A stretch of 64,000 nucleotides of DNA from Selaginella tamariscina (lineage: Eukaryota > Streptophyta > Lycopodiopsida > Selaginellales > Selaginellaceae), in contig PUQB01000025.1 of the NCBI GenBank assembly GCA_003024785.1, positions 992,001-1,056,000 on the forward strand. Direction: 5' to 3'. This document shows positions 2,136 through 43,299 of this stretch, in pieces. The translations under genes and the position numbers were made by a program. Numbering within the stretch: the stretch's first letter is position 1; each line of letters opens with the position of its first letter. A model generated the notes under the pieces. It ran no database searches. It was not told the DNA's origin and saw only the letters and a list, made by a program, of their open reading frames with translations.

Positions 2136-2171
2136 ATAACTGAAGTAAATTACATTCATAAAGTATAAATG

Positions 2172-3732
2172 CTAATTACATATTAAATATGTTCCAGGCC
2201 TGAGTGAAGCATTAAGAACCAAGTCTGGCGTACGCTTAAGCATAATGCCACGTTTGTTTTCTTCCATATCAATTTCCCCAGGGACACTCCAATCAAATAT
2301 CTGCAGCAAGCTGGCCAAGACAAGCGGTATAGTTCGCATTGCCAGAGGGTACCCGGGACAAATTCTTCTGCCGGACGAGAAGGGAATAGACTGGAAATGC
2401 TGCCCAGTTACTTTAATATTTGTTCCTAGAAAACGTTCTGGTCGAAACACATGTGGTTCACACCAGTAAGCTTCGTCCCGTCCTATTGCCCATATATTTA
2501 CCAACACCTTACACCCTGCAGGGATTCTATACCCTGCCAACTTCACCTCATTCGGATTGTAATGAGGAACGGCAAGAGGTATAGCTGGATGCATACGCAA
2601 AGTTTCCTTCACCACAGCTTGAAAGTATTGAAGACTCTGAAGGTCGCTCTCTTCCACCACGCGCGCCCTGCCTACCACATTATCAATCTCTTCTTGAGCC
2701 TTCTGCATCGCCTCGCTGTTGGATACTATCTCTGCCATTGCCCAATCAAGCATTATTCTTGTTGTATCCAGTCCAGCAGCAATCATATCCTGCACATTGA
2801 AGCTTAAGCTAGTTATGTGCATTTGTGTAACAGGGGCTGTTACTTATAACTTACCATGACCAAAGCAATGATGGAGATGTCTGGGAGCTGATCGTGCTCA
2901 TCAAGGGATATAAGGACATCGATGAAGTCACGAACAATGAATCCATCTCCAGCTTGATTTTTCCGCTCCTTGTGTTCTTGTATCTCCTTCTCAACGATGC
3001 CTTTCAAGGAGGGAACAAAGCTATTCATTCTCTTATATATTCCATGCAAGTCAAACTTATCGAGTGCAGGAATTATTTCCCCAATGTTCACTGTCCGGTT
3101 TTGTTCCCCATGGAGTTGATTAGCTCTGCTACCCTTAGCCCTTTCTTGCTGAAAAGGGTGAGACAAAGTGAGTTAGAGACGAATTGCTCAAACAAATGGG
3201 TGAGATTAACTCTTTTGTGATCCTTTGCAAGGTGAAATATAGATTCTATCGCGGTTCGAAGCTCAGAGTTGCGGAAAACAGCACTTGAATTGAGCATGTT
3301 GTTATTGAAGAGATGCATGCTTGTTATTCTTCGCATTCTCCTCCACTCTCTTCCAGGTGGGGAAAATACCAAATTCTTGTATCCAAAGCTGAATATCTTA
3401 AAAAACTCCATATGCGGACGGTGTGCGAAATCCTGATCATGGATTTTCAACACTTGCTCAGCCATTTCGGAATTGTTCACTATGAGAAATGGAACCATAC
3501 CAATTTTCACATACAAAATTGGTCCATACCTCTTGCTTAGATTTGCAAAGTGTTTATGTAATGGCATCTGGAGTGAAAACAATGAGCCAACGATTGGCCA
3601 TGGCAAGGGGCCTGGAGGTAACGATGACGTGTTGAAGCATGTGACGATGACTGCCGAACTAATATATTCCGTGTTGAGATTCCGTGTTGAGTCCCTCCAA
3701 AAAGAAGGCTCATGGCTAGTATGAAATTTCAT
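2172..3732 (-). pseudogene. Cytochrome P450 copy A (A-type, CYP71-clan-like), damaged
   Basis: Heme-thiolate monooxygenase, normally anchored in the endoplasmic reticulum. Exon 1 runs from about 3690 down to 2855 and exon 2 from 2789 to 2172, split by a 65-bp phase-0 intron (2790-2854, GTAAGT...TGCAG). Exon 1 has the proline hinge PPGPLPWPIVG and the helix C motif WRRMRR. Exon 2 has the helix I oxygen-binding motif AAGLDTTR, the ExxR motif KETLRMHP, FRPERFL and the heme loop [11 protein letters not shown] with its cysteine ligand. Two lesions are visible. The N-terminal membrane anchor and start codon are deleted: about 190 bp present in copies B and C are missing near 3648. One C is also missing near 3107, which shifts the frame in mid exon 1. 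Exon 2 is fully open. The motif pattern is that of plant A-type P450s; I cannot assign a subfamily or substrate. Confidence 0.88.
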
Positions 3733-4801: not shown

Positions 4802-6290
4802 TCGGCAAAAGAGCAACGAGCTTAGTCATGAACCCAGAAGCCCTCTTACTACATACTCTACCTTATTTATGTTCCAGCCCATTTATGTAAACATGAAAAC
4901 AGGGGGCCTTTATCACAAAATCTCATTTCTAGAGGAAATATACTTGGTGAGTTATCCATTGACCCCTAAACCTAACCTGTCAAACCTAGGGGTATTTTTT
5001 AATATATCCGACATGCTAAACTCACCGGAACTAATCATTAACCCAACCGGGACACGAAAAACCAAGGTAAGAGTTTTTTAAATGGAAGTGCTAGCTTTGC
5101 CTAGAATTTCTTACAAATACCTAATGACACCCGGTCGGACCATCACTAAATACCCAAGTGTACTAAGCGGGCATGTTTCCTCTACATCTAGGGCTTATTA
5201 ACATAGTACAGTAAGTAACAACAATTAACATCCAAAGTAAAGGGAAGTCATAATAAAAATTATGATAATTATAATCAATTCATAATAACATAAAAAGCAC
5301 TACCATTGTAGATAATAAGCATTTACAAGAATATTCAAGACTAGTTTTTAATATTAGAATATTATTAAAATCAATATATTTGATTTAAGCCTTTTTTAAT
5401 ATATTTAAATTAACAGCTCATCAAAGCAATCGAAACAAGTTTAACTTTCTTTTTTATGAAAATATTCTTTTCTTAAAATATTGCTTCTCTAAACTTAATA
5501 AGCCATCTTGTAATATAATAGAACTTTCTAGAACTAAAATATATTAAAATCAAAAAAAATATTTAGTAAATAAGAATATTCTAGGAATCCATGAAACATG
5601 CTTATTTTTATTTAAGAGTTTTTTATTCAAGAGAACCATAAGAAGTTTAAAAGTTATTATCAGAGTACTTCAATATTGTGCTTTTTATTATTAAAATATT
5701 TGAAATTTAAGTAACTTAAATTCCCTTAAACCCTTATTGATTTAATTAACTTAACATATTTATGTCTTATAAACATAACATGTAAATACTATTATCATTA
5801 TTTACATATGAATGTGGTTAGAATATTGATAATAATAAAATATTAAATTAAAAAATACATTTAATAATTAATATGTATTTTATGTTATACAACAAGTTAT
5901 TGACATTCACCCAATTTGTGCAAGGAAAATAACAAGTATCTACAATATATATAAAAAGTAAATATTTAATATATATTTTGAATGTTTAATTTAAACCTTT
6001 GTTTTTTTGAGATTGAGTATATATAAAGTTACACAAAATAAACCATTTACACACACACACACACACCTAATAAATGACTAGTTTATACATTAGCAATACA
6101 GTATATGTATTCCATGAAAACACCTTTGCATATATTTCTTTCAATCTTACATGCATATATATATAAGTAAATTACATTAATAAAATATAAATGCTAAAAA
6201 CTAGTTAAATATATCTACAAATAAAAAAGAAAATGTAAGAGATGACAAGTTAAAATTTACATAGTAAATTACATTCATAAAGTATAAATG
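4802..6290. repeat. P450 downstream flank, copy B (pair of 35018-36399)
   Basis: From 'ggcaaaagagcaacgagcttag' to the end of P450-B this AT-rich stretch is collinear with 35018-36399, which lies downstream of P450-C and is now cut off from it by element E2. It includes a (CA)n run at 6051-6066. No gene is seen. Confidence 0.7.
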
Positions 6291-6923
6291 CTAATTACAT
6301 ATGAATTCCCATTAAATATGTTCCAGGCCTGAGTGAAGCATTAAGAACCAAGTCTGACGTACGCTTAAGCATCATGTCACGCTTGTTTTCTTCCATATCA
6401 ATTTCCCCAGTGGCACTCCAATCAAATATCTGCAGCAAGCTGGCCAAGACAAGCGGTATAGTTTGCATTGCCAGAGGGTACCGGGACAAATTCTTCTGCC
6501 GGACGAGAAGGGAATAGACTGGAAATGCTGCCCAGTCACTTTAATATTTGTTCCAAGAAAACGTTCTGGTCGAAACACATGTGGTTCACACCAGTAAGCT
6601 TCGTCCCGTCCTATTGCCCATATATTTACCAACACCTTACACCCTGCAGGGATTATATACCCTGCCAACTTCACCTCATTCGGATTGTAATGAGGAACGG
6701 CAAGAGGTATAGCTGGATGCATACGCAAAGTTTCCTTCACCACAGCTTGAATGTATTGAAGACTCTGAAGGTCGCTCTCTTCCACCACGCGCGCCCTGCC
6801 TACCACATTATCAATCTCTTCTTGAGCCTTCTGCATCGCCTCTCTGTTGGATACTATCTCTGCCATTGCCAATCAAGCATTATTCTTGTTGTATCCAGTC
6901 CAGCAGCAATCATATCCTGCACA

Positions 6924-6931
6924 TTGAAGCT
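6924..6931. repeat. Left target-site duplication of the MULE
   Basis: TTGAAGCT at 6924-6931 recurs at 15261-15268. The uninterrupted site in P450-A (near 2793-2805) and P450-C has this word once. It can be read as 9-10 bp with one mismatch or indel, in the 8-11 bp range typical of Mutator-like elements. Confidence 0.85.
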
Positions 6932-7135
6932 GGGTCTCGGCGAAAAGGAGGCTCCGGCTCAGGAGGCTTCATATTATTCTAGTATATTCGCGGATATTCT
7001 AGGGTTATTCTAGCATATTCTAGCATATTCTCAAGAATATTCTAGAATATATAAGTTTTTTTAATATGCCGACTGGTTTAATATACGCCGACTGGCTTAA
7101 TATATGCCCACTGGCTTAATAAGACATTATCCTAA
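6932..7135. repeat. Left terminal inverted repeat and subterminal region of the MULE
   Basis: The outer 36 bp start GGGTCTCGGCG and hold GGAGGCT and CAGGAGGC blocks at the same distances as the inverted right end. Further in are AATATTCT repeats and three GCC(G/C)ACTGG units. The right end shows the same order: GGAGGC blocks, AATATTC repeats, then GCCGAC units. Confidence 0.8.
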
Positions 7136-7147
7136 ACCCTAAACCAT

Positions 7148-10100
7148 TTATCCTTGTAGCACCGGTGGGTCATGAACTCTGTTGCAATTCACCAGCAAAC
7201 GGTGGACCTCCATGTCACTGAGCGATCGCCTTTGTAGAAAATATGTGACTTCCGGGTTCAAGCCAAGCACACGGCTATAGACGAAGTACATGTGTACACA
7301 TGGGCTCCAACTTTTGCTCTTCTGAAATGTAGAACAACTGCATGAAGGATAAGTATTAATAGTCACCTTTGCAGAGTCATTTCCTGCCGACACAACGAAA
7401 GCCTCCTTCCGTCCTCTAGCTGTCACTTCAACATTTCGCACATAACCTAAAAACGTCTTGGCCTTGCGGAAATTCTTCTCTTGTTCCTTAGACATTTTTG
7501 TTGGAGTCCGAACCATACGTCCTTCGAAAGGTGGAATTGTTGTAGATCCAGCTCCACGTGGTGGCGATGGTGTTTTGTCCTTCTGACCCTCATCTACTCT
7601 TCCTGCCATCCCCTGTAAACCTTCCAGAACAAAGCCTGCATCCTGTAGTTCTCTGACCTCCTCACTTGTCAGCTTTGTTTCCTTGAGCACAGGCCAAACC
7701 GTTGGTGGTGTTGGAATATGTGACCGAAGAATTTTGCCGTTTGGCCGCGTGAAACACCCTGAATCTTTTGGGCAGAACCACATCATCTGTTGTACATACT
7801 CCTCATTCCCCAAGGCATCAATGTACATTCGTTTTCCATAGAATCCTGGTGCTGGCACTCTGCTTGGATAACCGATTGGTTTTCCACACAGAGCAGTTCT
7901 TCCTGATTCATCCCCAAACACTTAACCTTACTGAATGCTCTGATTCGTCTGATGGCCCACTCTGTTTGAGCAATCTCTCTCTCCGAAACCTCTTCGAACC
8001 TTAACCTCTTTCTCCTGTTGTTTTGGACCACCCGCTCTGTGTACTCTACATCATGTCTGTGTGAACGTCGAGCATCAGACTGTTCTGTTCCTGTGACTGT
8101 TCTCCTAACAGTTTGCACTCGAACGTTAGTGGTACACGTGAACTCCGGGCTGGTCAAGTGTTCCTCGCCTTCCACCAGATTAATAATTGTTGATGGAGAT
8201 ACTTTTCCCCTCAGAGAGTTTGCGTTGCACTCGTTTCAACAGAGTTTCCTTCGAAGGCCCTGACCCTGTATACCTCCCTTCTATTGCCGCTTTCACCTTC
8301 GCACTCTGCATAACTGCATCGGTGAGGTCTAACATTGTCGCCTCCAGCAGTGGTACTCTTTTGGCCAATCTTGCTCTTCTTGCTCTAGCGTGAATCACTT
8401 CAGCATTGTTTGTAGTTGGAACGCTCGCGAGTCCTTCTTCTGTCATGTCTCCCAGTTCCGCCATGGAGATGTGGTCCTCATGCCTGATCCACCAAGACAG
8501 CCATGTCTTCAAAGCTCGAATGTTTGACGCTCGTCCTTCCCAAAAAGACTCGAGAATTGCCAGTTGTTCTTTCTTAGATTGTTCATTCAGTGCTGCAGGC
8601 CAGGCACGAGCAAGCTTCATGTGTTCTTCGCGATGTTCTTCTGCGATCCATTTCTTTGTCACCTGACGCACGGATTGCATAAAGTGAAACAGACAGCTTC
8701 TTTCCCTCCCTTTCATCTTTGCTCCGTTGTTGAATACTTGGCGCAAGGCTATCCATATCGCTCCAGCCTCATCCGACATGAAACCAGCAAAGTTGACATT
8801 CTCCAAACCCTGCTTTTTACAAACCTCTAGCATTGTGTTCAAGAACTTCAGCACTGCAACATTATCTTCGCGGCACATATCTGCGTAAGCTATAGTCACC
8901 ATGGATCTGACACTGCAAGAGAGCGTTAGATAACGAAGATTAGAAAGTGTTATGAAGAGTTTTACAACTTACAATGGGTCATAAAGGTGTATTCCAATTG
9001 TCGCCCAGTCTGGTATGCGGTGCGTGTGGTCCAGAACAACCCATTGATCATGAAGGTCTCCTCCACTTTGACACCTTCTGATGTACTCAACTCCTGAACC
9101 CGGTCCCTCAACTGTCATTTTGAAGATCAGAGGCTGCTCCTCAGCACCATGCAGTTCCATCCCTGGAACATGTATGACATGAATGAAAGGTATTGGCAGC
9201 TTTGTCTTCAGCTCTAGAAGACCCTCGTAACCCTCTCTAAAGTGTGTCTCTTCTGTCTTGATTGTGTAATCCAGTCCCGAGTCCTAAAGAAAAGGTCACG
9301 TCAGTGTGTAGAGATCTAAAAAAAATACCTTCGATGGTTTGTTAGAGGTTCAAGTTTTGAGAGTAAACCAGTGTACGAGACTTCTCCTTCTTCCTTGAAA
9401 AGTTCTTCAAAGATGAGCTCACGCGCGGCTTGAAACTCAATCACTCGTTGATTGGTTTGCGGACTGCTCTTTACCACGTTGCTGACACTAGATCTGGCTC
9501 GCTGAACGTTTGAAGCTGACATTGAGGGGCTGACTGGATGCTGATGAACACCTCTGTGAATGAACAACCTTGTAAAAGAAATCGTCTGGCAGAATGTAGT
9601 ACACATAAGCCGGACAAGTGTGCACCAGCAATGGCTCCTCTCCACAATGCTTACATTTTATGCCTATTACTTTGCCTGTCTCAGTTGTCTTTGCCTTCTC
9701 CACAGCACCCTTGAAGTGACATTCATTTGCTTTCTTCTCAAAAGCCAAGTAGGGGCAAGTAGGATTGATGCATTGGAGATGTCCGACACATGAACTTCGA
9801 CTGACTCGCGCCGGAACATGCCAGTGTGTTGTGCTCGGGTGTGTCCAATGGTAGCAGCCATCCTTGCGATTCATCCCCGAGTACTTCTCTATGCTTTCTG
9901 TCTTAGGGGGAAGTTCAAAAATGACATTTCCATTGTATATGCGGTAGTTCAGAGACTCGTTTAACTTCAGACGAACCAATGAGATCCTTCCCTATCCTAC
10001 ATTTGTCTGCTCTTAGAAGACACACCATCATGGATTCCTCACGCTCCTCTGTCCGCAACCTGAACAACGGGCCCTTTGCGGGCACAATGTGTAAAAGACA

Positions 10101-10237
10101 AACTGGTTTGATGCATTGCCTTCTGGTAACAACTCCACATCTTCTCCAGAACTCGCAGAAACTGACATCAATTGAACCACATGTATACTGAACCAACAAG
10201 GAATGTTGAAAGCAATGTGAAGATCATGTTCAAACAC
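7148..10237 (-). pseudogene. MULE transposase with SWIM zinc finger, several frameshifts
   Basis: Read on minus, the N-terminal part (about 9979-9560) is cysteine/histidine-rich (HWTH, CINPTC, KCKHCGEE), a likely DNA-binding zinc module. After an intron at about 9327-9283 (GTATTT...TTTAG) comes the first catalytic region, WVVLDHTHRI (about 9045). A second intron follows at about 8965-8912. The next exon has GFMSDEAGAIW, CLFHFMQSV and TTNNAE, which fit the D...D...C/H...E pattern of the MULE domain. Near the C-terminus (about 7390-7270) CSCS...CVHMYFV is a SWIM zinc finger. Frame changes near 9985, 9565, 8205 and 7918 break the reading; several are in homopolymers. The first start is uncertain. 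The gene lies divergent to the methyltransferase gene and would mobilise the element if intact. Confidence 0.82.
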
Positions 10238-10794
10238 AAAAGCATTTCCATCTTCATCGACTGGGAAATCTTTGTCAATGCCTTCATAGGTAACTCTGGC
10301 TATGACAACACAAGGAGAAAGCTTGATGGTTTAGGAAAGCAAAGCAAAAGATTAAACACACTTTCTCTTACCAAAAAAAAATTACAATCGTTAACAATAA
10401 ACGTGAATACACATTTGTATATAATTAATTCTATGCTGCCCAGTTCACAGTTCTTAATGATGTCCTCTCTAGTATCACCGATTTAATTTAATTTCTACCT
10501 TTTATGATTTGAAATATCTTCACATTTACCAATTATTCACATATTTTAAAATAAACCCTAAATATTAATGTCACATTTATTCCGTAGGGTTCACTGTTTC
10601 ATTGCAGCTAGGGTTTTTTGGTAGATAGGGTTTACTGTTTCCATTGCGGCTAGGGTTCTTTCAATCTCAGATCTGTTTCCACTGCGGTAGATCCAGAGGG
10701 TTTCTTTAATCTCAGATCTCAGAGTTACGGTTTCCACTGCGGCGCCATCCATTTCGACTCGATTCGTGCAGCGCCCAAGTATAACAATGGAGAT
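10238..10794. promoter_or_regulatory. Divergent intergenic region with telo-box-like repeats
   Basis: Between the two MULE genes there is an AT-rich half, then a repeated block at about 10580-10745. There AGGGTT...CTGTTTCCATTGCGGC and 'aatctcagatct' recur in degenerate tandem form. TAGGGTTT words resemble plant telo-boxes, which are common near transcription starts. I infer that it drives both transcripts. No clear TATA element was assigned. Confidence 0.45.
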
Positions 10795-11765
10795 TTCTGT
10801 GCCGATTTAGATTCTCGGCACCATCCTGCTCAGCCGGCGGCCACAAGGTATGTGTAATTTCTGTATTTTATGATTTGCTGCTCAAAGTATTTCTTTTCCA
10901 GAGATATAGGGTCTTCTTATTTGTGCCGACTAAGAGCAACGGCACCATCCTGGTTCAGTCGGCAAACACAAGGTATCGTCGATTTATTTATTTTTTCCTT
11001 GCGGCTCAAGTATACGTGTCACAATGTTTTTTTTTCAGAGTTAATGGGTCTTTCCATTTGTGCCGACTGAGAGTGACGGCACCATCCTGGTTCAGTCGGC
11101 AAAAACAAGGTATTTTCGATTTGTTTTTTTTTTGCTTTCTGGCTCAAGTATTCGTATCACAAGGTTTTTATTTTCAGAGTTAATGGGTCTTCCCATTTGT
11201 GCCGACTGAGAGTGACGGCACCATCCTAGTTCAGTCGGCAGCCACAAGGTATGTTCGATATTTATTTTTTGCTTTCTGGATCATGTATTCGTATCACATT
11301 GTTTTTTTCAGAGTTAATGTGTCTTCTCATTTGTGCCGACTGAGAGTGACGGCACCATCCTTCTTCAGTCGGCAGCCACAAGGTATTTTGAATTTGTTTA
11401 TATTTGCTCTGCGGCTCAAGTATCCGTATAACAATGTTTTTTTTTTTCAGAGTTATAGTGTCTTCCCATTTGTGCCGACTGAGAGTGACGGCACCATCCT
11501 TCTTCAGTCGGCAGCCACAAGGTATTTTGAATTAGTTTTTTTTTTCTTTGTGTCTCAAGTTTCTTTTTAAAACAGTTAATGGGTCTTCCCATTTGTGCCG
11601 TCTGAGAGGGACGGCACCATCCTATCTCAGTCGGCACCATTATCTCTTCTGTGCCGTCTGACAGAGTCGGCACAAACTATCTCAGTCGGCAGGTTTTTTC
11701 TTCTACATCTCTGCGACTGAGAGGGTCGGCAGCATCTAGCTTGAGTCGGCAGCCACAAGGTTAGT
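10795..11765 (+). repeat. Tandem hairpin array, probably repeated noncoding leader exons
   Basis: About six to seven units of 120-140 bp. Each core is GTGCCGACTGAGAGTGACGG, then CACCATCC and TTCAGTCGGC, so GCCGACTGA and TCAGTCGGC form a stem. Upstream of most cores is a pyrimidine tract ending in CAG followed by AGTTAATG. Downstream is CACAAG followed by GTAT. Each unit thus looks like an exon with a 3' and a 5' splice site. The last unit (11590-11765) is expanded with extra GCCG(A/T)CTGA arms. The methyltransferase start codon at 11835 follows after one more acceptor (TTTCCAG at 11818-11824). Confidence 0.75.
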
Positions 11766-11834
11766 CATCTTTGTTTGTTTTTTATTTTGACTCCTCATCA
11801 ATTGACTTGTGTGTTTACTTTCCAGAGTTCCCAA

Positions 11835-14800
11835 ATGGTGAGAGCTTCAAAACGTCTACTAGAGACTGCGCCTGATGAAGAGCCACGGGAAGAGAAGAGG
11901 ATATCGAAGCAGAAGCGAGGCAAGAGAGGAGAACCATCTAATGTACCAAAGGAGGATCCTCCAGTGACTCAGTCTGGAGTAGTAGCAGTTGAGCAAGAAC
12001 AGCCTCCACCAACAATCACAGATTTCCCGGAGAGCTCGTCGCAGTTGCCTCCTTCATCCGCTGAGGTTGCAGTCCTGAACGAGCAAGTGCAGATGATAGA
12101 GGCAGCTGAAGCTAGCGAGGACGACTTGGAGGAGGCAGTCAGCAAAAGAGAGGCCGCGGGAAAGCTGATTCAAAAGGCAAGAAGGCGAAGAGCGATAAGG
12201 AGCCGAAGGAGTTATAAGCATACCGGCGAGCCTGCATTTGGAGAGCTCAGCAAACCTGCTCGACAAAATTACTATAAGGGACTTGGTGATCCTCCTGATG
12301 TGCCCATCTGCAGAATACATTCCAAAGAGGTGGTTCGACGAGTGAACCCAGGGGACTTGGACAGGCTGGTGTCATCGTTGAAGAAGGCTGGTTATCTACG
12401 CAACACGGCCATGTTCATTCTGTCCATCGGAGATCGACTCACTGCTGAGGAGCTATCGGAGCTGTCGAAGGACACGATTCAGTACGAGCAGCACCGGTCT
12501 TTCGAGCAAGCTCTTACTCAGCCGGAGTACAAACAGTGGGCTTCAAGGCTCTCAACAGGAAGTTTAGCTGTTGGGACGGGAACCATAGGCTACAGGCTTT
12601 GCAGAAGCTGTACCCGAGAGGATGCAGAGGACAACCAGCGATGGGCTATTCGCGTCGATCGAGTTTCATCTCCACGGAGAACCTCGACATTCTTCAATTG
12701 GTTTCGATGTTCCAATCGATTAACATGTGAGTATTTTCTTTTCTTTTTGTTAAGAGTTTAGACTTACAGTTTCGTTGAACAGATCTTCAGCAACATCTGT
12801 GGAAACAACGCTACCACATATTCTCCTCGCTGTAAAGGCGGTCTGCACTAGTACAGAAGGAACTCAGAAAATCCTCGAGTCACTCACGGAGGTTGATCGT
12901 CTTGAGGTGCGGAAGTGGAAGGAGAGTTCATCAGGAAAGACGGCTTGGCATCCTCTTCCGAACCTGATCTGCGCAAAGATACTTTTCAAGGTAACCTCCG
13001 ATTTAATTTATAGGAAAGAAATTTTTAACTTGTTCTATGTGCAGAACGAGATCGACGATGATCTCGACAGAGCAGTCACCAGTGCTAAGGGCAATCCACA
13101 GGTTGAGGTGAACCTGAAGCAGCTAGTATACAAGAAGCATGACAAGCGTATGCACAAGTTCCTCTCCATCATAGACCCAGACTTGGGGGAGGAGTGGTTC
13201 CAGAAGGTGACAAACATCTCTCATAAGCAGTGTCGCTGGATGGGCATTGAGAAGCTGTATGCGATGTCAAGGGCGAAGATTCCAAACATGCTGCGACTCC
13301 GATACCTCAACAAGCTCACCCGTCTCGAATCCAAGGCAGAACAACAGACACTTGGGCTACCGGGCATGCAGGACAAAGAGTGGATCAAGTGGTTCACCTT
13401 GGACTTATATTGGAAGGCTGTGCGCGAGGAAGCCATTCAGATCCTTAAGGGGTTGCGAGAGGATGGTGAAGAAGTTGGAACGGATGTCGACTTCATGAGC
13501 TGGTTTGACGAGATGAGAATTCGGAGCAAGTGCCTGGTCTTTCAGCCCTTCCATGACTGCATACGGTTCACTTATTCGATGGAGCCGAATGAGTTTCTGG
13601 AGCGTGAGGAATCTGCGCGTCGGATGATATGGAGGTAAGCTTTCAATCCAGCATTGCTACTGTCTGACTTTGTGTTGCAGGTTCATACTGGCGAAGCAAA
13701 TGACACCGTCCCATACGATGAAGCTGTGGACAGATCATACAAGCGAGCCTCACATGTGGTCGAAGAGCAGAGGAGCTCTAACACCGTTCGAACGGGAGCA
13801 TGTTCCATTCTGGCTCGACTGTCCGTCGCAACAGCCACCAGCTTGGGAGAGCACACTATTCGACATGCACGCCAATGATCTACCAGCGATTTTGGGAGCC
13901 AGAAGAAGTAGAGGCTATCAAGAAGAGCAAGATGAAGAAGACGGTGCGGAAGACAACTACACCTGCAAAGGGATCGGGAGCGGGACCAAGCTCTTCTACA
14001 GCACCTCCGCCGGCATTCGACTTTACAATCAATGAGGTACAGCCACTTGTAGCTAGTTTGGACATCAAGGACGACCTGATGACCTTCATCCCGACCCTGG
14101 CTGCATCCCGTGGATCCTACGACCTAGCTGTGTGCGACATGGAGGAGATGAGCAGGTCTTTCTTCGAGCCAGGTGCTTCCCAGACAGAGGTGTACACCAA
14201 GCTCCGAGAACAGGTTGACAGACTACATACGGTTGAGTCACAAACGTTGTTCCAGGAAGTGGTAGGTGAATACGGCTTCAACCTCATCATCCTCGACTTG
14301 CCCAATGAGCTTGTATATGGAGGTGCTAGCATCAACAAGGACATTGTGCAGCTAGATCCGGTGAAGTTTGAGGAGGCCTTGCAGTTCAGTGGAATGCACT
14401 TGGCAGCGAGTGGTTTCATGGTCGTCTTCGCGAGTTCTCCTTCTGTTTCGGCGGTGATTCAGGCGGCTGCAGTAATCAACTTGGAGGTTGCAGGGACTTA
14501 CAGCGTCTACCGTGCACGAGGCTGGGGATACCGTGACAAAATTAAGGTAAGCTAGCTATTCAAGTTCAAGTTTAACTTGGTCTATGTGGCAGGATAACTT
14601 GTTAGTTCTCTTGGTGCTGCAAAGCTCTGAGAAGAAGTCGAAGAGGCCAAACCCTCTGGCGTTGACGAACACGATCCTCGTCGACACTGCCGACCGTTAT
14701 CAGGAGGCTTGGTAAGGAAGTGCTTTGCTATGTTTATCCTAATGGAAGATTGTGCAGGATTATGATTCAACCGAAGAGTGTTCGACTCATGCAGCTTTTG

Positions 14801-15055
14801 ATCGAGCGTCTCAGTAGACCTGGCGACCTAGTCTGGGATATTGGTTCCGGAACCGGGTCATCATTGTTAGCTGCCGTCGAGCTCGGAAGGAATATTATAG
14901 GAACCGAGAAGAGTTTCGAACTCTCTAGGTTGGCAACAAACAAGCTTGCAGAGAACATTAGACCAGAAGAGTTACCTACTCAAACACCTCCACGTCCAAG
15001 CGTAACTGGTGGTTCGAGAACTGCAGCTTTACTTAAGATGAAGAAGAAACTTTAG
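11835..15055 (+). CDS. ParB-like / DNA methyltransferase-like fusion protein, spliced
   Basis: My gene model has exons 11835-12726, 12783-12990, 13045-13634, 13681-14546, 14593-14711 and 14758-15055, with GT-AG introns of 46-56 bp. Frame is kept across all junctions. Protein order: a charged, low-complexity N-terminus with nuclear-signal-like KQKRGKRG; a ParB-type region (PICRIHSKEVVRRVNPGDLD, later CWDGNHRLQALQ, matching ParB dGhHRlxA); a middle region without recognised motif; LIILDLPNE in the place of motif IV (D/N-P-P-Y); and DIGSGTGSSLLAAVELG followed by IIGTEK, the SAM-binding motif. Motif IV before motif I is the beta-class N6-adenine/N4-cytosine order. The catalytic PP is reduced to LP, so activity is uncertain. 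Frame breaks near 12530 and 13870 interrupt exons 1 and 4. ParB-methyltransferase fusions are known from phages and other prokaryotic mobile elements; introns and position show that this one belongs to the plant transposon. Confidence 0.78.
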
Positions 15056-15119
15056 CTAATGTATATTGAGTAATAAATTAAGCTAATATAAAAAAAATTA
15101 AAAAGAAATACAACAGTTT

Positions 15120-15260
15120 TAATAGAATTCTTTTTTGCCGACTGAGGCCAATACTGCCGACCAGAAAGAATATTCCAAAATATTCTAGAATATTCTAATA
15201 TTCTTGAATATTCGAGCCCAGGCCTCCTGGGCCCCAAGCCTCCAAAATGGCGACACTCAT
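15120..15260. repeat. Right terminal inverted repeat and subterminal region of the MULE
   Basis: Read inward on minus it starts about GAGTGTCGCC, then GGAGGCTTGG and CAGGAGGC, matching the left end. AATATTCTAGAATATTC repeats and two GCCGAC units (GCCGACTGAG at 15137 and GCCGACC) follow. Confidence 0.78.
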
Positions 15261-15268
15261 TTGAAGCT
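15261..15268. repeat. Right target-site duplication of the MULE
   Basis: TTGAAGCT, a direct repeat of 6924-6931, followed by the intron sequence 'taagctagttatg' that continues P450-B. Confidence 0.85.
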
Positions 15269-16157
15269 TAAGCTAGTTATGTGCATTAGGGGCTGTTACT
15301 TTAACTTACCATGACCAAAGCAATGATGGAGATGTCTGGGAGTTGATCGTGCTCATCAAGGGATATAAGGACATCGATGAAGTCGTGAACAATGAATCAT
15401 CTCCAGCTTGATTTTTCCGCTCCTTGTGTTCTTGTATCTTCCTTCTCAACGATGCCTTTCAAGGAAGGAACAAAGCTATTCATTCTCTTATATTTCCATG
15501 CAAGTCAAACTTATCGAGTGCAGGAATTATTTCCCCAATGTTCACTGTCCGGTTTTGTTCCCCCATGGAGTTGATTAGCTCTGCTACCCTTAGCCCTTTC
15601 TTGCTGAAAAGGGTGAGACAAAGTGAGTTAGAGACGAATTGCTCAAACAAATGGGTGAGATTAACTCTTTTGTGATCCTTTGCAAGGTGAAATATAGATT
15701 CTATCGCGGTTCGAAGCTCAGAGTTGCGGAAAACAGCACTTGAATTGAGCATGTTGTTATTGAAGAGATGCATGCTTGTTATTCTTCGCATTCTCCTCCA
15801 CTCTCTTCCAGGTGGGGAAAATACCAAATTCTTGTATCCAAAGCTGAATATCTTAAAAAACTCCATATGCGGACGGTGTGCGAAATCTTGATCATGGATT
15901 TTCAAAAACTTGCTCAGCCCATTTCGGAATTGTTCACTATGAGAAATGGAACCATACCAATTTTCACATACAAAATTGGTCCATACCTTTGCTTAGATTT
16001 GCAAAGTTGTTTATGTAATGGCATCTGGAGTGAAAACAATGAGCCAACGATTGGCCATGGCAAGGGGCCTGGAGTAACGATGACGTGTTGAAGCATGTGA
16101 CGATGTAGATACAGACAAGTCCGAGGAAGAAAAGAGTAAGCTGAAGAGCCAGTCCAT

Positions 16158-19682: not shown

Positions 19683-20097
19683 TGTCACTACTCGATACAG
19701 AATACAGGATTTACTTACAAGTATAGGATATAGGATACATGATACAGGATACGGGATACAGGATATGCTTATAAATATACCTATAGGATATGCCTACATG
19801 ATATACCTACATGATATGCTTATAGGATATACCTATAGGATAAGGGACATTATTTTTAGCTCATGACTAAATTAGCTCTTGGAATATATTTTTAGCTCAT
19901 GCCTAAATTAGCTCTTGGAGTTATGAGTATAAAAGCTCCGACCTAATTGTTGTACAATTAGTTACTATCAACACCAGTCATTCTATGATCATTCTTGTTT
20001 GTTCTTGTCTTGTTCCTTGCTTCATATTCTCGTTTTGTTCTTAGTTCTTGTTCTGCTCTTGAGTCAAGCCTTTTTGCTCTTGGATCGTGGCTTGACA
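19683..20097 (+). repeat. 5' LTR of the plus-strand Ty3/gypsy element
   Basis: It starts TGTCACTACTCGATACAG and ends GGCTTGACA. The GGATA(T/C) minisatellite lies in the first third and 'gtataaaagctccgacc' at about 19927 looks like a TATA region. The sequence after the LTR (GTTGATAGTAATTG) does not start with TGG. Confidence 0.82.
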
Positions 20098-20193
20098 GTT
20101 GATAGTAATTGATTTCATAGTTCTTCCAATTTCCAGTTACTTTTTTTTCCTTAGTTTTTCTCCCTTGTTTTCCTTCTTTTTTTTCCACGGATC

Positions 20194-21600
20194 ATGGCAG
20201 ATTTTGAGTAATTTCAACGCGAGCACTAAATGTTGCTTCATGAGCTAGCCACTTTGCGCCAAGTGGTCACAGATTTGCAAGGTTCCACCAACGTGGCACA
20301 TACAGCTGCTAATGCATCTTCCAAGGCTGCTGCACAGGCTCTCTCTCAAGCATCCATGGTTTCCTCTCCATTGAACTCTTCTTCAGAGTTAAAGTCAGCA
20401 TGCCAGAGAAGTTCAGTGGCAATCGCACCGATTTCCAAAGTTTCCTGAATCATATCAGGCTTTTGATCCGCATGCAGCCACGCCATTACCGATTATGCAC
20501 AAAAGGTTGGCCTTTTGGCATCTTTACTAGTGGATCTCACGGGCTTGGGTTGCCCCTTTGCTATAGCATGACAACCCATTGATAAAGACTTTGAAGGATT
20601 CGTGGCTGCCTTTGAAGCCTGCTTTGGAGATCTCAATAAGTACTGTTCCGCATGCACGAAGTTAAGGAAGCTCACACAAGGATTCCGACTAGCTTTCATC
20701 TATGCATCCAAATTTCAATAACTTTACACGAACATTCTATGGGATGAGACTGCATTGATCGAATATTTCCATTTTGGGTTGAGGGATACGTGAAGGACCT
20801 TCTCCTTACGTTATCGAATGCCAAACTTTAGCGGAGTCATGCAACAAGCCGTTTGCTGCGAAACCGTTTGTTCGGCATCATTAGGAAAATCTTGTCAGCA
20901 GTTCCTGCAAGCCATCCTATAGCTGTAGCACATATTCCTATGACACCTTCTAGAGTAGTTCATATGGAGGTTGACAAATACAAGTGTGGCCCACTTTCAG
21001 CTGTTGAGAAGCAACATTTCACGGTGAGAACTTATGCTTGTTTGTGGTGAAGCATGACACAAGGTGGCAGAATGTCCTATTAAAGTCAAGAAGTTCAAGA
21101 CGTGTGAGTTGAAGCTTAAGTTCAGCCGGAAAACTTCAATGTCCAGTTCATCTAGGAGCCGCGAAGTTGGACGTAGGTGCAAGCTCCATTGGTGCTACTC
21201 ATACCATTTTATCACTCAAGTTTCCTGTACACATTCGCCTCAATAATCAAGAGCTCAAGGAGTTTGCTCTGTTAGACACTAGTGCAAATGCATGCTTCAT
21301 GGATGACACTTTTGCAACTCAACATGGCATTCCAGTGTGGTGAAGTTGAAGAGTGCAGTTCCTGTAGAAGTTGCAGATGGTCGTCTGATTGCTTCTGGTG
21401 CAGTTACTCATGCTACCACACTCTCTCTTGCACTCATGGAGCATTCAACTATTCGATTTCCTTCAACTTGATCAAGACTCGAACAATCCCATCGTTTTGG
21501 GCATGCCATGGTTCGTAGTGGCAAATCCTCAGATCGATTGGAGGTCCAGGACGCTCACATTTTTCTCTTCGGTAGCCAGGATTAATTTTGTACCTTTCTG
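20194..21600 (+). pseudogene. gag-protease region of the plus-strand Ty3/gypsy element
   Basis: The Gag start at 20194 (MADFE) meets a stop after five codons and another shortly after. Gag-like segments MLLHELATLRQVVTDLQG and PEKFSGNRTDFQ remain. A CCHC knuckle remnant is near 21040-21090 (AECPIK). Around 21270-21500 'LLDTSANACFMDDTF' fits the aspartic protease active-site region, with DTS in place of DTG/DSG. Frames change repeatedly. Confidence 0.75.
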
Positions 21601-22349
21601 CGTGTAGGATATGACCTTAGTGTTTAAGGCAGCACAAGTTACAGGATTGACCGTGCCTGTTCATATATCAGTGTTGAAGATTCTCCTCGACAGGATTCAC
21701 CTCATGTCAGTTCATCATCCGCAGGCTCTCTCCACTCATGTAAGTTCACGGATTCCTGTACATGGTTTTTTCAATCCTGTATCAGTGTCGAAGGTTCCTC
21801 TTCAACAGGATCACCTCCTGTCAGTTCGTCAGCACATTCACAGGCTCTCCTCACTCCTATGCATTCACAGACTTCTGTACAAGATTCTTCCAATTCTGTA
21901 CGCTCGTCAACATCAGCACAGATTTTCCCCAATCCTATCTTCTTTTCATTACTCTGCTTCTATTCCATCCACCAAAATCCTTCATCTTTTTCATTCACAG
22001 CTCCCTCCTTCTCCTCTCCGAGTTCTTACCACTACTATGCATGAACTTGTCATTGATCCTACTCCTTTTCATCTCTTTGCTTTTCAAGTAACTCTTACGT
22101 CTCTTCTACCTCTCCTATATCTAACTCTCATGTTTTCAATCCCCTTCTTCTCCTTCTACTTCTTCCTTGCCATCCAAGTATCACTCCTTCCATGACATTT
22201 TTAATAAGCACAAGGTTGAGTTCTTCCTATTCACAGGTCCTACAACTGTCCTATCGATCTTACGGAGGGAAGACTCACCATTTGGGCTAATTTATGCCCT
22301 GTCACCTACAAATTGGAGGTTCTTCGCCAGTACATCAAGGACAATTTAG

Positions 22350-25040
22350 CATTTGGCTTCATTTGTCATCAAAGTCCCCTACAGGGAGCCTATCTTCTTT
22401 GTCAAGAAGAAATATGAGAGTTTGGGTTGGTTGTGGACTACAGGGGTTTGAATAAAGTCACCATCCGGAATCGGTACCCATTGCCATTGATCCCGGAACT
22501 TCTCGTCGACTACAAGGAGCAAAGGTGTTCACGAAGATCAATTACGAGGGGCCTACATCTTGTACGGATTTATTCAGGCAATAAGTGGAAGACTATCTTT
22601 CATACAAGGTATGGACATTTTGAGTACACGGTGATGCCTTTCGGACTTACAAATGCCCCAGTCGTGTTCCAACACATGGTGAACGACATCTTTCGCGACT
22701 TCTTAGACTAGTTTGTGGTGATCTACCTCGAGAACATCCTGATTTTCTCCAAGAACCAGACGGCACAACGACTAGTTCTACAGAAGCTTTGCTGTATGCG
22801 AAGTTGGAGAAGTGTTTTTTCGACAGGGATATGTGGAGTTCTTGGCTACATCGTCTCTCCTGCTGGCATTTTCATGGACATGCTACAAGGTGAAGACTAT
22901 CGTGGAGTGGGAGGCCCAAGTCTGTACAAGACATACAATGTTTCCTTGGCTTTGCAAACTTCTACAGGCGATTTATACAGGACTTCTTCAAACATGTACT
23001 TCCACTCACGGACACCAAAGCGCACATGGGATTTCTCCTAGTCCGACAAGGCAGAACATGCATTCACAACACTAGACGCCTTCAAGACAGCTCCGATTTT
23101 AGCACACCTGATCTTCTCTTCCCTTCTTCATTCAGATGCTTCAGACTTTGCAGTAGGTTCTATTCTATCACAGTTGAAAGAAGAAAGTTATCAACCCTGT
23201 AGCCTTTCACTCTCGTAAGTTCCTTTCGGCAGAAATCAATTACGAGATTCATGACAAGGAACTCAAGGCCATTGTGGATTCGTTCGAAGAATGGCAGCAC
23301 TTCTTGGAAGGTGCTGCTTCATCATTACAAGTTCTTATGGATCACAAGAACCTGAAGTTTTTTCAAACGGCTCGAGTTCTTAGTCGGTGATAGGTAGGTG
23401 GGCGGAATTCCTATCACGTTTTAATTTTGTCATTGTCTACAGGCTTGGTTTTCAGAATGGCAAAGCGGATGCATTGTCTAGGCACTCCTACCTTGCACCG
23501 ACCTCGGACGATCCTGCATATGATTGTCAAAGTAAGTGTTGTTGGGTCCTGATTGATTTCGGCTTGCGGCATTACAAGTTCATCAGGCTCCAACAAATTC
23601 AACATTTCTATAGGGCATCCGTTTGCAATTGGCTACAGACGACTTGGTCAAGAATGTGTTTCACACATTAGTCCTGACATCGTAAGCTCTTCTTCCTGCA
23701 GTTCCCGTACAGACTACAAGTTGTTTGCCATATAGGATGAACTCCTATATCGGGAAGGTCTCCTGTAAATTCTTGTTGGTGTTTACAAGGATCGTGGTAC
23801 AGAATTGTCATGATACCCGCTACAAGACATTTTGGTGTGGCCAAGAAATTGAGTTGGTGACTCGCAACTATTGGTGCCTGGGTTGCGAGGTTTTGGAAAA
23901 GTTTGTACGGAGTTGTGACACTTGCAACATGTTAAAGATGCCTCGTCACGCACCCTCTGGTCTTCTTCGCCCTCTTCCTGTTCCCTCTGGTCCTTGGAGA
24001 TCCATTTTTATGGATTTCCTCATAGATCTTCCTCCTCGTGGATTTGATGCAGTTCTTGTGGTGGTTAACCATTCACTAAACATGCTCATTTTCTACCCTG
24101 TAACAAGACGGCTACAGGCCAGACAACTGCTAAGTTGGTGATCCGAGAAGTGTTTCAACATCATGGTCTTTTTGAGAGCATTGTTTCTGATCGAAGCCCA
24201 CAATCATGTTTAGGTTTTGGCGAGAGCTTCTTCGGAGTCTACAAGTTAAAGCGGATCTTTCTTCAGGATATCATCCGCAAATTGATGGACAATCAGAACG
24301 CAAGATTCAAACCTTGGAGTAGTATCTTCGTTGCTTCATCAGTTACCAACAGGACAACTAGTTGGACCTTCTTCCTATGGCAAAGTTTGCTTACAACAAC
24401 TCCATTCACGCATCTATAGGTCAGACACCTTTCTTCGCTCTTATAGGCTACCATCAACGTTTTGACTTTGCTCCTCATGCTTCTCCTTCTTCCGCTCCTG
24501 TAGTACAAGATCATCTCCAGCATCTTCGTCAAGTACAGGATGATCTCCAAGTTCATCTTCAACAGGCACAGGAACAATACAAACGTCATGCTGATGCTCA
24601 TCGTCAATCGGAACCTGCATACAAGGTTGGTGATCTTGTGTGGCTTCTTCGTCGGCAAATCCGCACCAACAGGCCTTCTTCTAAATTGGATTTTCAACGA
24701 TTGGGCCCTTATAGGATTGCGGCTAAGGTCAATCATGTAGCTTTCCAACTAGAGTTACCATCTATTGTGAAACTTCATCCTATGTTTCACACTTCTTTGT
24801 TGGAGCCATATCATCCTTCTTCTCTTCCTGGTCATGCTTCTTCTCCTCCCCCTCCTATGGTCATTGACAGTGAACCTGAATACGAAGTTGCAGCCATCCT
24901 TGATTCTCGTCTTCATCGCTACCAACTTCAATATTTAATGAATTGAAAAGGTTATTTGCCTACCAATCGCACTTGGGAACCTGTATCCAATTTACTCCAT
25001 GCTTCTTCTAAGGCTGCCAGTTAAACCAGGTCCCAAGACT
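22350..25040 (+). pseudogene. pol of the plus-strand Ty3/gypsy element (RT, RNase H, integrase, chromodomain)
   Basis: Reverse transcriptase motifs: [20 protein letters not shown] (22430) and [24 protein letters not shown] stands where Y-x-D-D is expected, so the catalytic aspartates are lost. RNase H is near 23130-23390 ([27 protein letters not shown]). The integrase zinc-binding region ends in CDTCNMLKMPRHAP (23920). The integrase C-terminus and chromodomain (about 24600-25010) show YRIAAKVNHVAFQLELP and then EYEVAAILDSRL...YLPTNRTWEP. Chromodomains steer integration into heterochromatin in this group. Confidence 0.85.
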
Positions 25041-25068
25041 CGTAAAACTCGTCCTTAGGAAGAGGTGT

Positions 25069-25409
25069 TGTCACGACCCGATACAAAATACAGGATATAG
25101 ACGGATATAGCATATGCCTACATGATATACCTACAGGATATGTTTACAGGATATACTTATATGATATACCTAGATATGCTTACATGATATACTCTTGGAG
25201 TATATTTTAGCTCATGCCTAGATTAGCTCTTGGAGTTGTGAGTATAAAAGCTCCGACCTAATTGTTGTATAATTAGTTATTATCAACACCAGTCATTCTA
25301 CGATCATTCTTGTTTTGTTCTTGTCTTGCTCTTTACCTCATGTTCTTTGTTCCTACTTCTTGTCCTGCTCTTGAGTCAAGCCTCCTTGCTCTTGGATCAT
25401 GGTTTGACA
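25069..25409 (+). repeat. 3' LTR of the plus-strand Ty3/gypsy element
   Basis: It starts TGTCACGACCCGATACA directly after a purine-rich tract (AGGAAGAGG, polypurine tract) and ends GGTTTGACA. Confidence 0.8.
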
Positions 25410-25592
25410 ATAATGAGAGCTTATTTTACAACTTCTGTCAAAATGTAGTGTTCACTCTTATGTTTAAATATGCCCTTCTTTTGAAGTCAAAGACACACAT
25501 TGAACATAAGTCTTTCCTCGTTTGAACACTTAGTCTATTGCTGAACCTGATATTGAATCTTGACCTAAGCCAAAACTCAATGGACATTGTCT

Positions 25593-27300
25593 GTGTCAAA
25601 CCATGATCCAAGAACAAGGAAGTGAGCAGGATTCCGAGAACAAGGAAGCTTGACTCAGAAGCAAGACAGGAGCAGGACAGGAACTGGAGCAGGACAGGAA
25701 CTAGGAATTAGGAACAAGACAAGAGCAGGAGGCAAGGAGCAAGACAAGACAAGATTGATCGTAGAAAGACTAGTGATGATAGTAATTGATTGTACAACAA
25801 TTAGGTCGGAGCTTTTATACTCACAACTCCAAGCTAATCTGGTCATGAGCTAAAAATAGTAACCCTTATCCTCTAGGCATATCCCATAGTATATCATGTA
25901 GGAATATCCTGTAGGTATATGTTGTAAGAATATCCTGCAGGCATATCATGTAGGTATATCCTATAGGCATATCTTGTAACCCATATCCTGCATCCTGCAT
26001 CCTGTATCGGGTCGTGACAACACCTCCTCCTTAAGGACGAGTTTCACGAGTTTAATCTGGTCATGAGCTAAAAATAGTGACCCTTATCCTCTAAGCATAT
26101 CCTATAGTATATCCTATAGGCATATCCTGTAACCCGTATCATGTATCCTGCATCCTGTATCGGGTTGTGATAGCATTTCCTCCCTAAGGACAAGTTCCAT
26201 AAGTCTTGGGACCTGGTTTAGTAAGATAACACCGATGGAAAGCAGCAACTTTGAAAGAAGCATAGAGTAAGTTGGATGCAAGTTCCCAAGTGCGATCGGT
26301 AGGCAAATAACCTTTCCAATCCACCAAGTATTGAAGTTGGCGGCAATGAAGACGAGAATTAAGGATGGCTGCAACTTCGTGCTCAGGTTCACCGTCAATA
26401 ACCACATGAGGGGAGGAGAAGAAGCACGACCAGGAAGAGAAGAAGGATGATACGGCTCCAACAAAGAGGTGTGAAACACAGGATGAAGTTTCACCATAAA
26501 TGGTAACTTGAGTCAGAAAGCTACAAGATTGACCTCAATCGCAATCCTGTAAGGCCCAATCGTTAAAAATCCAACTTAGAAGAAGGCATGTTAGTGTGAA
26601 TATACCAACGAAGAAGCCACACGAGATCACCAATCTTTTATGCAGGTGCCGGTTGACGATGAGCATCAGCATGATGCTTTTACCATTCCTGTGCCTACTG
26701 AAGATAAACCCGGAGATCCTCCTGTACCTGACGAAGATGCTAGAGAATACTCTAGGTTCTTATGATCCATAAGAACTTGTACATGATGTGCAGCACCTTT
26801 TAGGAAATGCCACCACTCCTCGAACAAATCCACAATGACCTTGAGTTCCTTGCCATGAATCTCGTAATTGATCTCTGCCGAAAGGAACTTACGAGAGTGA
26901 AAAGCTACAGGATGAAGAAACTTGTCTTCTCCAACTTGTGATAGAACATATCCTACTGCAAAATCCGAGGCATCTGCTTCAACAAAGAAGGACGAGAAGG
27001 ATCAGGATGTGCTAAAATCGGAGCTGTCGTGAAGGCGTCCTTGAGTGTTGTGAATGCATGTTCCGCCTTGTCAGACCAAGAGAACACTCCTGTGCGCTTG
27101 GTGAGTTCCGTGAGTGGAAGTACACACTTGGAGAAGTCCTGTATGAAATGCCTGTAGAAGTTTGCAAAGCCAAAAACATTGTACGTCTCATACAGACTTG
27201 TACGCCAAAATCACTCTCTTCTGCAGCAATGCTGACTAAGGCCAACTGGCCAGCTATAAGCAAAGACATCCGCTTGGGTTTGAACCACCATTAAGGTGTG
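25593..27300 (-). mobile_element. Internally deleted Ty3/gypsy fragment
   Basis: LTR sequence at 25593-26019 is followed by a second partial LTR end at about 26050-26171, then, on minus, chromodomain and integrase C-terminus (26172-26745). At about 26745 the sequence jumps directly to RNase H and the RT thumb region (26746-27270). Most of the integrase is therefore deleted, and gag and the second LTR are missing. It is a dead remnant next to the complete element at 27385. Confidence 0.8.
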
Positions 27301-27384
27301 CATGTACTCCGGAATCAAAACCCTAATTCTCCTTTACCCGTTACCACCATTGTAGGCCTCTATCCTACCGTTAAAAGTTGATAT

Positions 27385-27912
27385 TGTTAAGCCACAATCC
27401 AAGAACAAGGAAGTGAGCAAGATTCCGAGAACAAGGAAGCTTGACTTAAAAGCAGGACAAGGAGCAGGACAGGGAGCATGACAGGAACTAGGAACCAGGA
27501 ACAAGACAAGAGTAAGAGGCAAGGAGCAAGACAAGACAAGAACAAGACAAGACAAGATTGATCGTAGAAAGATTTGTTGATAGTAACTGATTATACAACA
27601 ATTAGGTCGGAGCTTTTATACTCACAACTCCAAGCTAATCTGGTCATGAGTTTAATTTGGTCATGAGCTAAAAATAGTGACCCTTATCCTCTAGGCATAT
27701 CCTGTAGTATATCCTATAAGCATATCCTGTAAGTATATCCTGTAGGAATATCCTGCAGGCATATCTTGTAGGTATATCCTATAGGCATATCCTGTAATAT
27801 CATGTAAGCATATCCTGTAGGAATATCTTACAGGCATATCCTATAGGTATATCCTATAGGCATATCCTGTAACCCGTATCCTGTATCATGCATCTTGTAT
27901 CGAGTCGTGACA
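27385..27912 (-). repeat. 3' LTR of the complete minus-strand Ty3/gypsy element
   Basis: TGTTAAGCC...TCGTGACA, 528 bp. On the internal side is the polypurine tract (minus strand ATGGAGGAGGTGC). It is about 120 bp longer than its partner at 32950-33354, mainly because the TATCCTGTAGG(A/C)A minisatellite has more units. Confidence 0.82.
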
Positions 27913-27924
27913 GCACCTCCTCCA

Positions 27925-29480: not shown

Positions 29481-29492
29481 AACCAGGCCTAT

Positions 29493-32853: not shown

Positions 32854-32949
32854 GATTTATGAAAGAAAAAAGGAAGAAAACGAAGGAGAAGAATCAAGGA
32901 AAAAAAGTAGCTAGAAATTGGAAAGCTATAAAAGCAGTTATTATCAAAC

Positions 32950-36399: not shown

Positions 36400-36426
36400 A
36401 TGCACGTTGTAACTAAAGTGGGCATG
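36400..36426. repeat. Left terminal inverted repeat of E2, copy 1
   Basis: It starts ATGCACGTTGTAACTAAA. The 27 bp match the inverted 51149-51175 with two mismatches, and the same 27 bp start copy 2 at 54456. Confidence 0.88.
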
Positions 36427-37879: not shown

Positions 37880-38147
37880 AAGAAATTGTCGCCAAACCCC
37901 TCTCTTACCTCATGGCAATGCTGAAAATCCATGTTCTCAATTATTTCATTACATCTGCAAAATGATAATTAGCTGACCTTAAAATTATCAAGGTATATTA
38001 TTTACCTTGTTAATGTGTGACCCATGTTTGAACTAAAAGCTTCATTAATCCTTGAGAATTTATTTTCTGTACAAATATAAAAGAAATATACAAAAATGCC
38101 TTATGTTACACTCATTTACAACTATTCATCACTCTATCAATTCATTA

Positions 38148-43248: not shown

Positions 43249-43299
<51 letters not shown>

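Follow-up and report, generated by a model that had tools for sequence, protein, structure and literature searches.

A high-copy, probably Mutator-like transposon family of Selaginella tamariscina with a predicted ParB-like/N6-N4 methyltransferase gene and shared motif arrays

Introduction

Accessory proteins that combine a ParB-like domain with a DNA methyltransferase domain, together with the idea that such proteins mark the DNA of the element encoding them, have been reported for transposons of brown, red and green algae (PMC12477816). Here we describe an 8327-bp transposon of Selaginella tamariscina, located at positions 6932-15258 of a 64,000-nucleotide stretch of contig PUQB01000025.1 (assembly GCA_003024785.1, positions 992,001 to 1,056,000; this whole stretch is hereafter called the window). 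The element contains a transposase gene and, divergent to it, a second gene predicted to encode a probable ParB-like domain joined to an N6/N4 methyltransferase domain. We tentatively propose, with somewhat less than even confidence, that this second gene is a regular component of a high-copy Mutator-like family, and that its product binds TGCCGACT sites and either methylates the DNA of its own element or keeps the region in an open state, relieving silencing and/or preparing the ends of the element.

The closest described counterpart is a protein of a brown algal Sola-1 transposon. It is of similar length, about 1000 amino acids (aa; 1104 there, 992 here), and it also combines ParB-like and N4/N6 methyltransferase domains in a DNA transposon, on the strand opposite the transposase. 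The two systems, which are likened by description only, differ in their transposases (Sola-1 there, a probably Mutator-like one here) and in their hosts (an alga there, a plant here), and recognition-site arrays are described only for the present element, as far as the accessible part of that report extends (PMC12477816). An earlier note on this DNA, made from the letters alone, had proposed that a plant transposon captured such a gene; a capture private to a plant transposon is not established by the present data, and ParB-methyltransferase proteins are reported from algal transposons. No report of a ParB-methyltransferase transposon from land plants, or of one that is Mutator-like, was found in the openly accessible literature, outside which most subscription papers lie. 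New here are the hypothesis that TGCCGACT is a recognition site and the arrays shared by two subfamilies; ParB-methyltransferase proteins in algal transposons were already known.

A second parallel is offered by the VANC proteins of VANDAL elements in Arabidopsis. The element-encoded VANC protein binds a motif that is arrayed by tandem duplication in noncoding parts of the element, and the whole element loses its DNA methylation (PMC5735166). Both systems comprise a protein encoded by a plant transposon and tandem arrays of a short motif, which differ between related elements. By description, VANC is set apart by its motif (YAGTATTAY) and, in the accessible part of the report, is presented neither as a methyltransferase nor as a ParB protein (PMC5735166).

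The same domain order, with the ParB-like half in front and a methyltransferase containing DPPY or SPPY behind it, is encountered in phage proteins such as Gp24 and Gp25 of Acidithiobacillus phage AcaML1 and others, whose ParB identity was taken from their sequence and from the annotation of related matches. Unlike the Selaginella gene, these are phage genes without a transposase; their methyltransferases carry [DS]PPY and share 17% identity over the aligned part (first template). Gp46 of Corynebacterium phage Kimchi1738 was fetched as a further candidate for a ParB fusion and rejected, as it does not resemble one. The bdelloid enzyme N4CMT likewise represents an N6_N4_Mtase domain of bacterial origin that is found in a eukaryote and tied to transposon DNA. 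It is, however, the product of a host gene, contains a chromodomain and is tied to transposon silencing, whereas here the transposon owns the gene (PMC8885841).

Results and Discussion

Copy number and gene linkage

The S. tamariscina assembly (300.7 Mb, 1391 contigs) was scanned with the N6_N4_Mtase profile. This yielded 739 first-look candidates, and all of the 150 places that were scored exceeded the cut-off; the element family is thus a high-copy one. Longer DNA was examined at 18 places other than the window, which were picked from the list and do not constitute a random sample; one of them (L028), with too little upstream DNA, was set aside. A transposase gene adjoins the methyltransferase gene at 14 of the remaining 17 places. 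Among these 14, the transposase gene is partial at two (L030 and L040), and the order is scrambled at one (L032). It is missing at L031 and L039, and the partial copy L022 (C560:817093) is apparently without a transposase gene of its own. The view of the earlier note that a mobile element carries both a transposase gene and a divergent methyltransferase gene is therefore well founded, and the case it had named as contrary evidence, namely the gene at fixed positions outside any element, was not seen within this assembly.

Some of the copies belong to a second subfamily (C726 type), which shows 65-70% DNA identity to the first in the shared parts and contains both genes, again arranged divergently in this order. 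The second-gene proteins of the two subfamilies share 53% identity in the C-terminal part (determined for L024); for the ParB region, compared in L027, the figure is 61%.

At L019/L034 (G000:C14:498k) and L015/L035 (G000:C111), a near-complete copy is adjoined by an extra inverted fragment of the right part of the element. L022/L023 (G000:C560:805600-819500) are two adjoining second-subfamily copies in opposite orientation, one of them partial.

Structure and conservation of the second gene

The second gene occupies positions 11835-15055 of the plus strand. Six exons (11835-12726, 12783-12990, 13045-13634, 13681-14546, 14593-14711 and 14758-15055), separated by GT-AG introns of 46-56 bp, were placed by hand, and the spliced, six-exon arrangement divergent to the transposase gene (7148-10299, minus strand) agrees with that proposed earlier. 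Both genes are frame-broken in the window copy, the second gene in exons 1 and 4, a feature absent from the earlier note. In copy L036 the second gene is open across all six exons and encodes 992 aa, while in the nine other spliced copies, the window copy included, it is not open throughout (the rearranged copy L032 was left out of this comparison). None of the five second-subfamily copies that were spliced whole is open throughout.

The breaks are mostly private single-base insertions or deletions (indels). Comparison of the window copy with L035 revealed 44 indel events versus 35 substitutions over 8294 aligned bases, with 24 of the 30 one-base indels located in base runs, whereas in the comparison with L037 substitutions (104) outnumber indel events (61). 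An excess of indels between close copies is typical of long reads that have not been corrected, more so than of decay by itself, and read error is its likely source. The frame breaks therefore prove neither that the window copy is dead nor that it is live.

Conservation of the gene was assessed by the raw proportions of nonsynonymous (pN) and synonymous (pS) differences, the latter being too high for correction. When the two subfamilies are compared, pN amounts to 0.28-0.33, and pS, at 0.83-0.89, is saturated; this holds for the ParB region and the methyltransferase core alike. From these low pN and saturated pS values, together with the gene order common to the two subfamilies, we conclude that purifying selection has acted on both halves of the protein, and the second gene can therefore be considered a selected part of the element.

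These data also bear on the explanation that the gene is a passenger of the Pack-MULE type (MULE, Mutator-like element), captured without a function for the element. Mutator-like elements in plants often carry captured gene pieces, and the frame is broken in the window copy and in eight further spliced copies. A complete multi-exon gene, retained in the same order in two subfamilies with low pN and saturated synonymous divergence, and with an intact frame in the sister copy L036, is nevertheless hard to reconcile with such a passenger, and the indel pattern described above argues in the same direction. We consider a passenger gene very improbable, and a plain pseudogene was judged unlikely for the same reasons (the intact 992-aa L036, the indel pattern and the low pN).

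Searches for relatives of the second gene gave no match for the methyltransferase read-through at E 0.001 among 7985 scored candidates, and none for the C-terminal 357 residues at E 1 among 7324 scored candidates; in both cases the plant's own and near genomes may have been excluded and the number of candidates was limited, which makes these negatives weak evidence. A scan of viral contigs found no match.

The methyltransferase half

According to profile comparisons, the C-terminal half of the protein is a complete beta-class N6/N4 methyltransferase domain, and its fold is secure. The last exons match the Pfam family N6_N4_Mtase over its cut-off (E 1.5e-9), and this half also matches phrog_67 of the PHROGs database (E 1.8e-10) and, weakly, MboIIA in the PDB (E 0.00033). 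In an hhalign comparison with 11 phage and plasmid enzymes, out of a set of 13, the whole domain was aligned (213 columns, probability 98.6%, E 1.5e-15, values obtained without a shuffle control). The predicted catalytic half, with motif IV as LDLPN, is encoded at 14271-14546 (plus strand; profile-profile alignment and subfamily comparison), and the predicted S-adenosylmethionine-binding half, with motif I as DIGSGTGSS, at 14593-15055 of the same strand, where the N6_N4_Mtase match lies. Motif IV followed by motif I is the beta-class order. The beta-class motifs recognised in the earlier note are thus corroborated, and we regard the protein as a member of this fold family with a putative activity on A or C.

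Motif IV itself deviates from the usual [DNS]PP[YFW] form with its final aromatic residue. A [DS][PLI]PY motif is present in 12 of the 13 comparison enzymes (none is recognisable in the thirteenth), while both subfamilies of the element have DLPN, which aligns on DPPY in the profile comparison and places Asn where all 12 comparison motifs have an aromatic residue. This substitution speaks against an active enzyme. If the methyltransferase half were catalytically dead, the protein could act as a DNA-binding anti-silencing or recruitment factor like VANC. We think this rather unlikely, as the Asp and the second Pro of motif IV and the entire motif I are kept, Leu at the second place is also found in two comparison phage enzymes (DLPY), and pN is as low in the methyltransferase core (0.275) as in the ParB region (0.277).

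The ParB-like half

Profile-profile comparison and subfamily alignment point to a probable ParB-like domain in exon 1 (12297-12726, plus strand), in which some 42 residues appear to be inserted ahead of CWDGNHRLQALQ; CWDGNHRL is kept in both subfamilies. In comparison with 13 phage ParB-like proteins, this region reached a score of 21.2. Each of 100 column shuffles scored lower, 20.0 at the most, and the reversed profile reached 15.5. After removal of the 42 columns before CWDGNHR, 84 columns were aligned with a score of 25.4, above all of 60 shuffles, and GNHRLQALQKL was placed on GHGRLAAAQKL, which brings GNHR onto the G[HQ]xR motif of ParB. Cuts of the same size elsewhere gave scores of 18.5-28.4, with neighbouring cuts equal or better, so that the insert can be placed only approximately.

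Several results weigh against this assignment. No curated ParB profile of Pfam, PHROGs or NCBIfam matched the region (limit E 10; in one Pfam search E 1). The profile match of the whole region extended over 23 columns without the motif, with a probability of 3%, and that of the insert-removed alignment had a probability of 20%, the insert having been picked by eye. A PDB profile search with the ParB region did not find a ParB chain; its sole two matches were designed repeat proteins (E 0.48 and 1.4). The ParB identity claimed earlier is thus no more than probable: CWDGNHRLQALQ is present and the profile-profile score exceeds all shuffles, but no curated profile matches; of the two profile checks that had been suggested, N6_N4_Mtase gave a clear match and ParB did not. 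The pairing of ParB with a methyltransferase in other transposons raises the odds of ParB identity (PMC12477816), and we conclude that the front half is probably a ParB-like domain.

Motif arrays

Repeat and motif analysis revealed an array between the two genes (10798-11787), whose units, each about 139 bp long, are based on TGCCGACT/AGTCGGCA. Single TGCCGACT sites were found by motif search near the left end (7067-7074, plus strand) and near the right end (15136-15143, plus strand) of the element. Exact sites number 13-14 in the middle and one at each end, tandem duplication inflating the count in the middle zone. The second subfamily also has an array on this motif at the same intergenic place, and the motif at both element ends. 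Its units are 37-40 bp long and contain the palindrome CCCAGTCGGCATGCCGACTGGG, whereas in the window array the motif forms facing half-sites about 39 bp across and not a palindrome. Among the copies counted, all five of the second subfamily contain the palindrome, 3 to 10 times each, and the six of the first subfamily lack it. Strikingly, the motif has persisted although the subfamilies differ in unit length and in most of the unit sequence.

AGTCGGCA is the sole 8-mer present in all six noncoding zones (left, middle and right, in two subfamilies), and none of 300 dinucleotide shuffles yielded any six-zone 8-mer. It occurs exactly 31 times, against an average of 0.04 and at most 7 occurrences among 500 permuted 8-mers, and in the 55,673 window bases outside the element AGTCGGCA or its complement occurs once. 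A three-zone 8-mer with five or more G/C arose in none of 500 shuffles of the window element and in two of 500 of C726. The force of these figures is reduced by the common descent of the two elements, which the six-zone control ignores, and by the best local match between the two arrays (42 bases, 76%, E 0.004). In addition, single-element shuffles had some 8-mer in all three zones in 92 of 500 cases for the window and 70 of 500 for C726. Within the limit set by this single-element control, the element resembles the VANC/VANDAL system in having motif arrays in its noncoding DNA.

An array built on a shared motif suggests, by analogy with VANC proteins, an array of target sites. On the strength of the same analogy, we take the second-gene protein to be a sequence-specific factor that belongs to the element and probably recognises TGCCGACT; its likely output would be the methylation of nearby bases. 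The TGCCGACT sites could equally belong to the transposase, and the main rival explanation is that the array and the end sites bind the transposase alone, or are promoter elements of the two divergent genes, with the methyltransferase acting at other places, or solely on DNA of the element that is excised or undergoing replication. A transposase or a transcription factor would bind where these sites lie, at either end and in the promoter region between the divergent genes. However, 13-14 sites in the middle against one per end would be an odd share for an end-binding transposase, and the palindrome in C726 suits a ParB-like dimer, though it suits other dimers too. We hold this explanation to be unlikely on balance, though it deserves serious consideration.

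Proposed function

In our preferred reading, that of an element-encoded factor acting on its own DNA, the ParB-like front half would recognise the iterated TGCCGACT sites between the genes and near both ends (palindromic in one subfamily). The enzyme half would then methylate the element's own DNA at these places, producing N6-methyladenine (6mA) or N4-methylcytosine (4mC), or would keep the region open. As an outcome, host silencing would be relieved and/or the ends would be prepared for the transposase. Binding of the protein to TGCCGACT, DNA methylation by the protein and the anti-silencing outcome are all inferred from analogy with the systems described above.

The shared TGCCGACT arrays give the self-marking idea of the earlier note a concrete target. 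In its most specific form, a ParB-like methyltransferase would load on parS-like palindrome arrays and deposit 6mA or 4mC, which would protect the element from silencing by 5-methylcytosine and license transposition; we consider this full chain of events doubtful.

Genuine, enzyme-written 6mA or 4mC in vascular plants is disputed. The family described here provides a candidate writer, kept by selection, together with a candidate for its target sequence; at least 150 scored places are present in a single genome, and the question of 6mA and 4mC in plants becomes directly testable. If the element does mark its own DNA, selfish DNA of a plant would have adopted the self-marking logic of bacteria and phages, as a parallel to VANC and to the algal ParB-methyltransferase transposons, and a selfish element would be running a self/non-self code in a land plant.

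Transposase and superfamily

The predicted transposase has a Cys/His-rich N-terminal part, a D-x65-D-x123-E core with C-x2-H, and a SWIM-like end. The gene was delineated with the help of a relative, P0001; its start codon was not located. In the core, 65 residues lie between the two D, C-x2-H follows 25 residues and E 123 residues after the second D, a spacing which we take to recall Mutator-like transposases and which has no profile support. The SWIM-like zinc finger (CSC...CVH; 7271-7348, minus strand) was matched in the window at E 0.0036 (0.039 with the whole read-through) with 17.3 bits versus the Pfam cut-off of 19.6, and in P0001 at E 0.0027, also under the cut-off. P0001 was the one relative among 7975 scored candidates (E 3.4e-45, 28% identity over 55% of the query). 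It keeps the core signature from the second D onward, the first D being missing. P0001 is located on a short contig of 2430 bp (source lgn). Neither the window read-through, nor its core, nor P0001 matched a MULE transposase profile in Pfam up to E 10, and no KDZ or CxC profile of Pfam matched the transposase or P0001. An AlphaFold2 model of the core, built from two sequences, had a predicted local distance difference test score of 36.9.

With neither a MULE nor a KDZ profile matching, the length of the duplication and the core signature make a Mutator-like assignment the best fit, though not one proven by profile; we regard it as probable. The MULE transposase of the earlier note is accordingly retained as probable on the basis of the D-D-E core with C-x2-H and the 9-bp target duplication (see below); no MULE profile matches, and the weak SWIM match lies under its cut-off. 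The element might instead belong to another SWIM-bearing superfamily, e.g. KDZ (Kyakuja-Dileera-Zisupton), known for epigenetic accessory genes. This seems improbable to us, as KDZ target duplications are 8 bp long and those found here 9 bp, the spacing of the core presumably is that of Mutator-like transposases, and a KDZ or CxC match in Pfam is absent too. Features consistent with KDZ are the absent MULE match, the Cys/His-rich N-terminal part and the accessory genes that KDZ elements carry, according to the accessible parts of two reports (PMC12477816; PMC12730594).

Insertion site, target duplication and ends

A blastn comparison of the window with itself showed that the flanks of the element (6263-6931 and 15261-16105) are contiguous at 2144-3649 and at 51188-52708, the flank matches overlapping by 8 bases at the joint in both sister stretches. 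The open reading frames on either side of the element encode pieces of a cytochrome P450 (PF00067; E 1.3e-48 over profile positions 285-414 on the left, E 9.4e-8 over 57-161 on the right). With P450 matches on both sides and uninterrupted sister stretches, it follows that the element split a cytochrome P450 gene; the two sister genes in the window retain the empty site, as the earlier note had described. Copies L035, L036 and L037, with both ends and different flanks, each have their own target duplication.

The target duplication is 9 bp long in the seven copies with both ends located; copies with a lost or unlocated end were not counted. It is exact in four of them (L037, L032, C726 and C1037), and has one mismatch over 9 bp in L036; L035 shows either two mismatches or a difference in the length of a run. 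In the window it reads ATTGAAGCT on the left (6923-6931) and ATTTGAAGCT on the right (15259-15268, from the comparison of copy ends), the latter being one T longer within a base run, and the empty sites (2796-2804 and 51848-51856) contain ATTGAAGCT once. The 8 bp previously assigned to the duplication are its exactly matching part in the window, and because the duplication is 9 bp, the right end of the element moves from 15260 to 15258.

The element has the termini GGGTCTCGGC ... GGCGACACTC, the right one reading GAGTGTCGCC when reversed. Inverted ends are present, as had been noted, but they are short and imperfect: the best local match comprises 22 columns, and its score was reached by 3 of 1000 shuffles for the window and by 64 of 1000 for subfamily C726.

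Elsewhere in the window, a 6.8-kb stretch is duplicated at 36400-43275 and 54456-61256 with 96.7% identity, beside the duplicated P450 stretches. A region of about 13 kb (19722-33355) comprises a cluster of related direct and inverted repeats, approximately 70-92% identical, which resembles nested mobile elements. Dense inverted-repeat arrays, self-matching in both orientations among the matches listed, are located at 41600-43200, 47064-47403 and 59600-61200.

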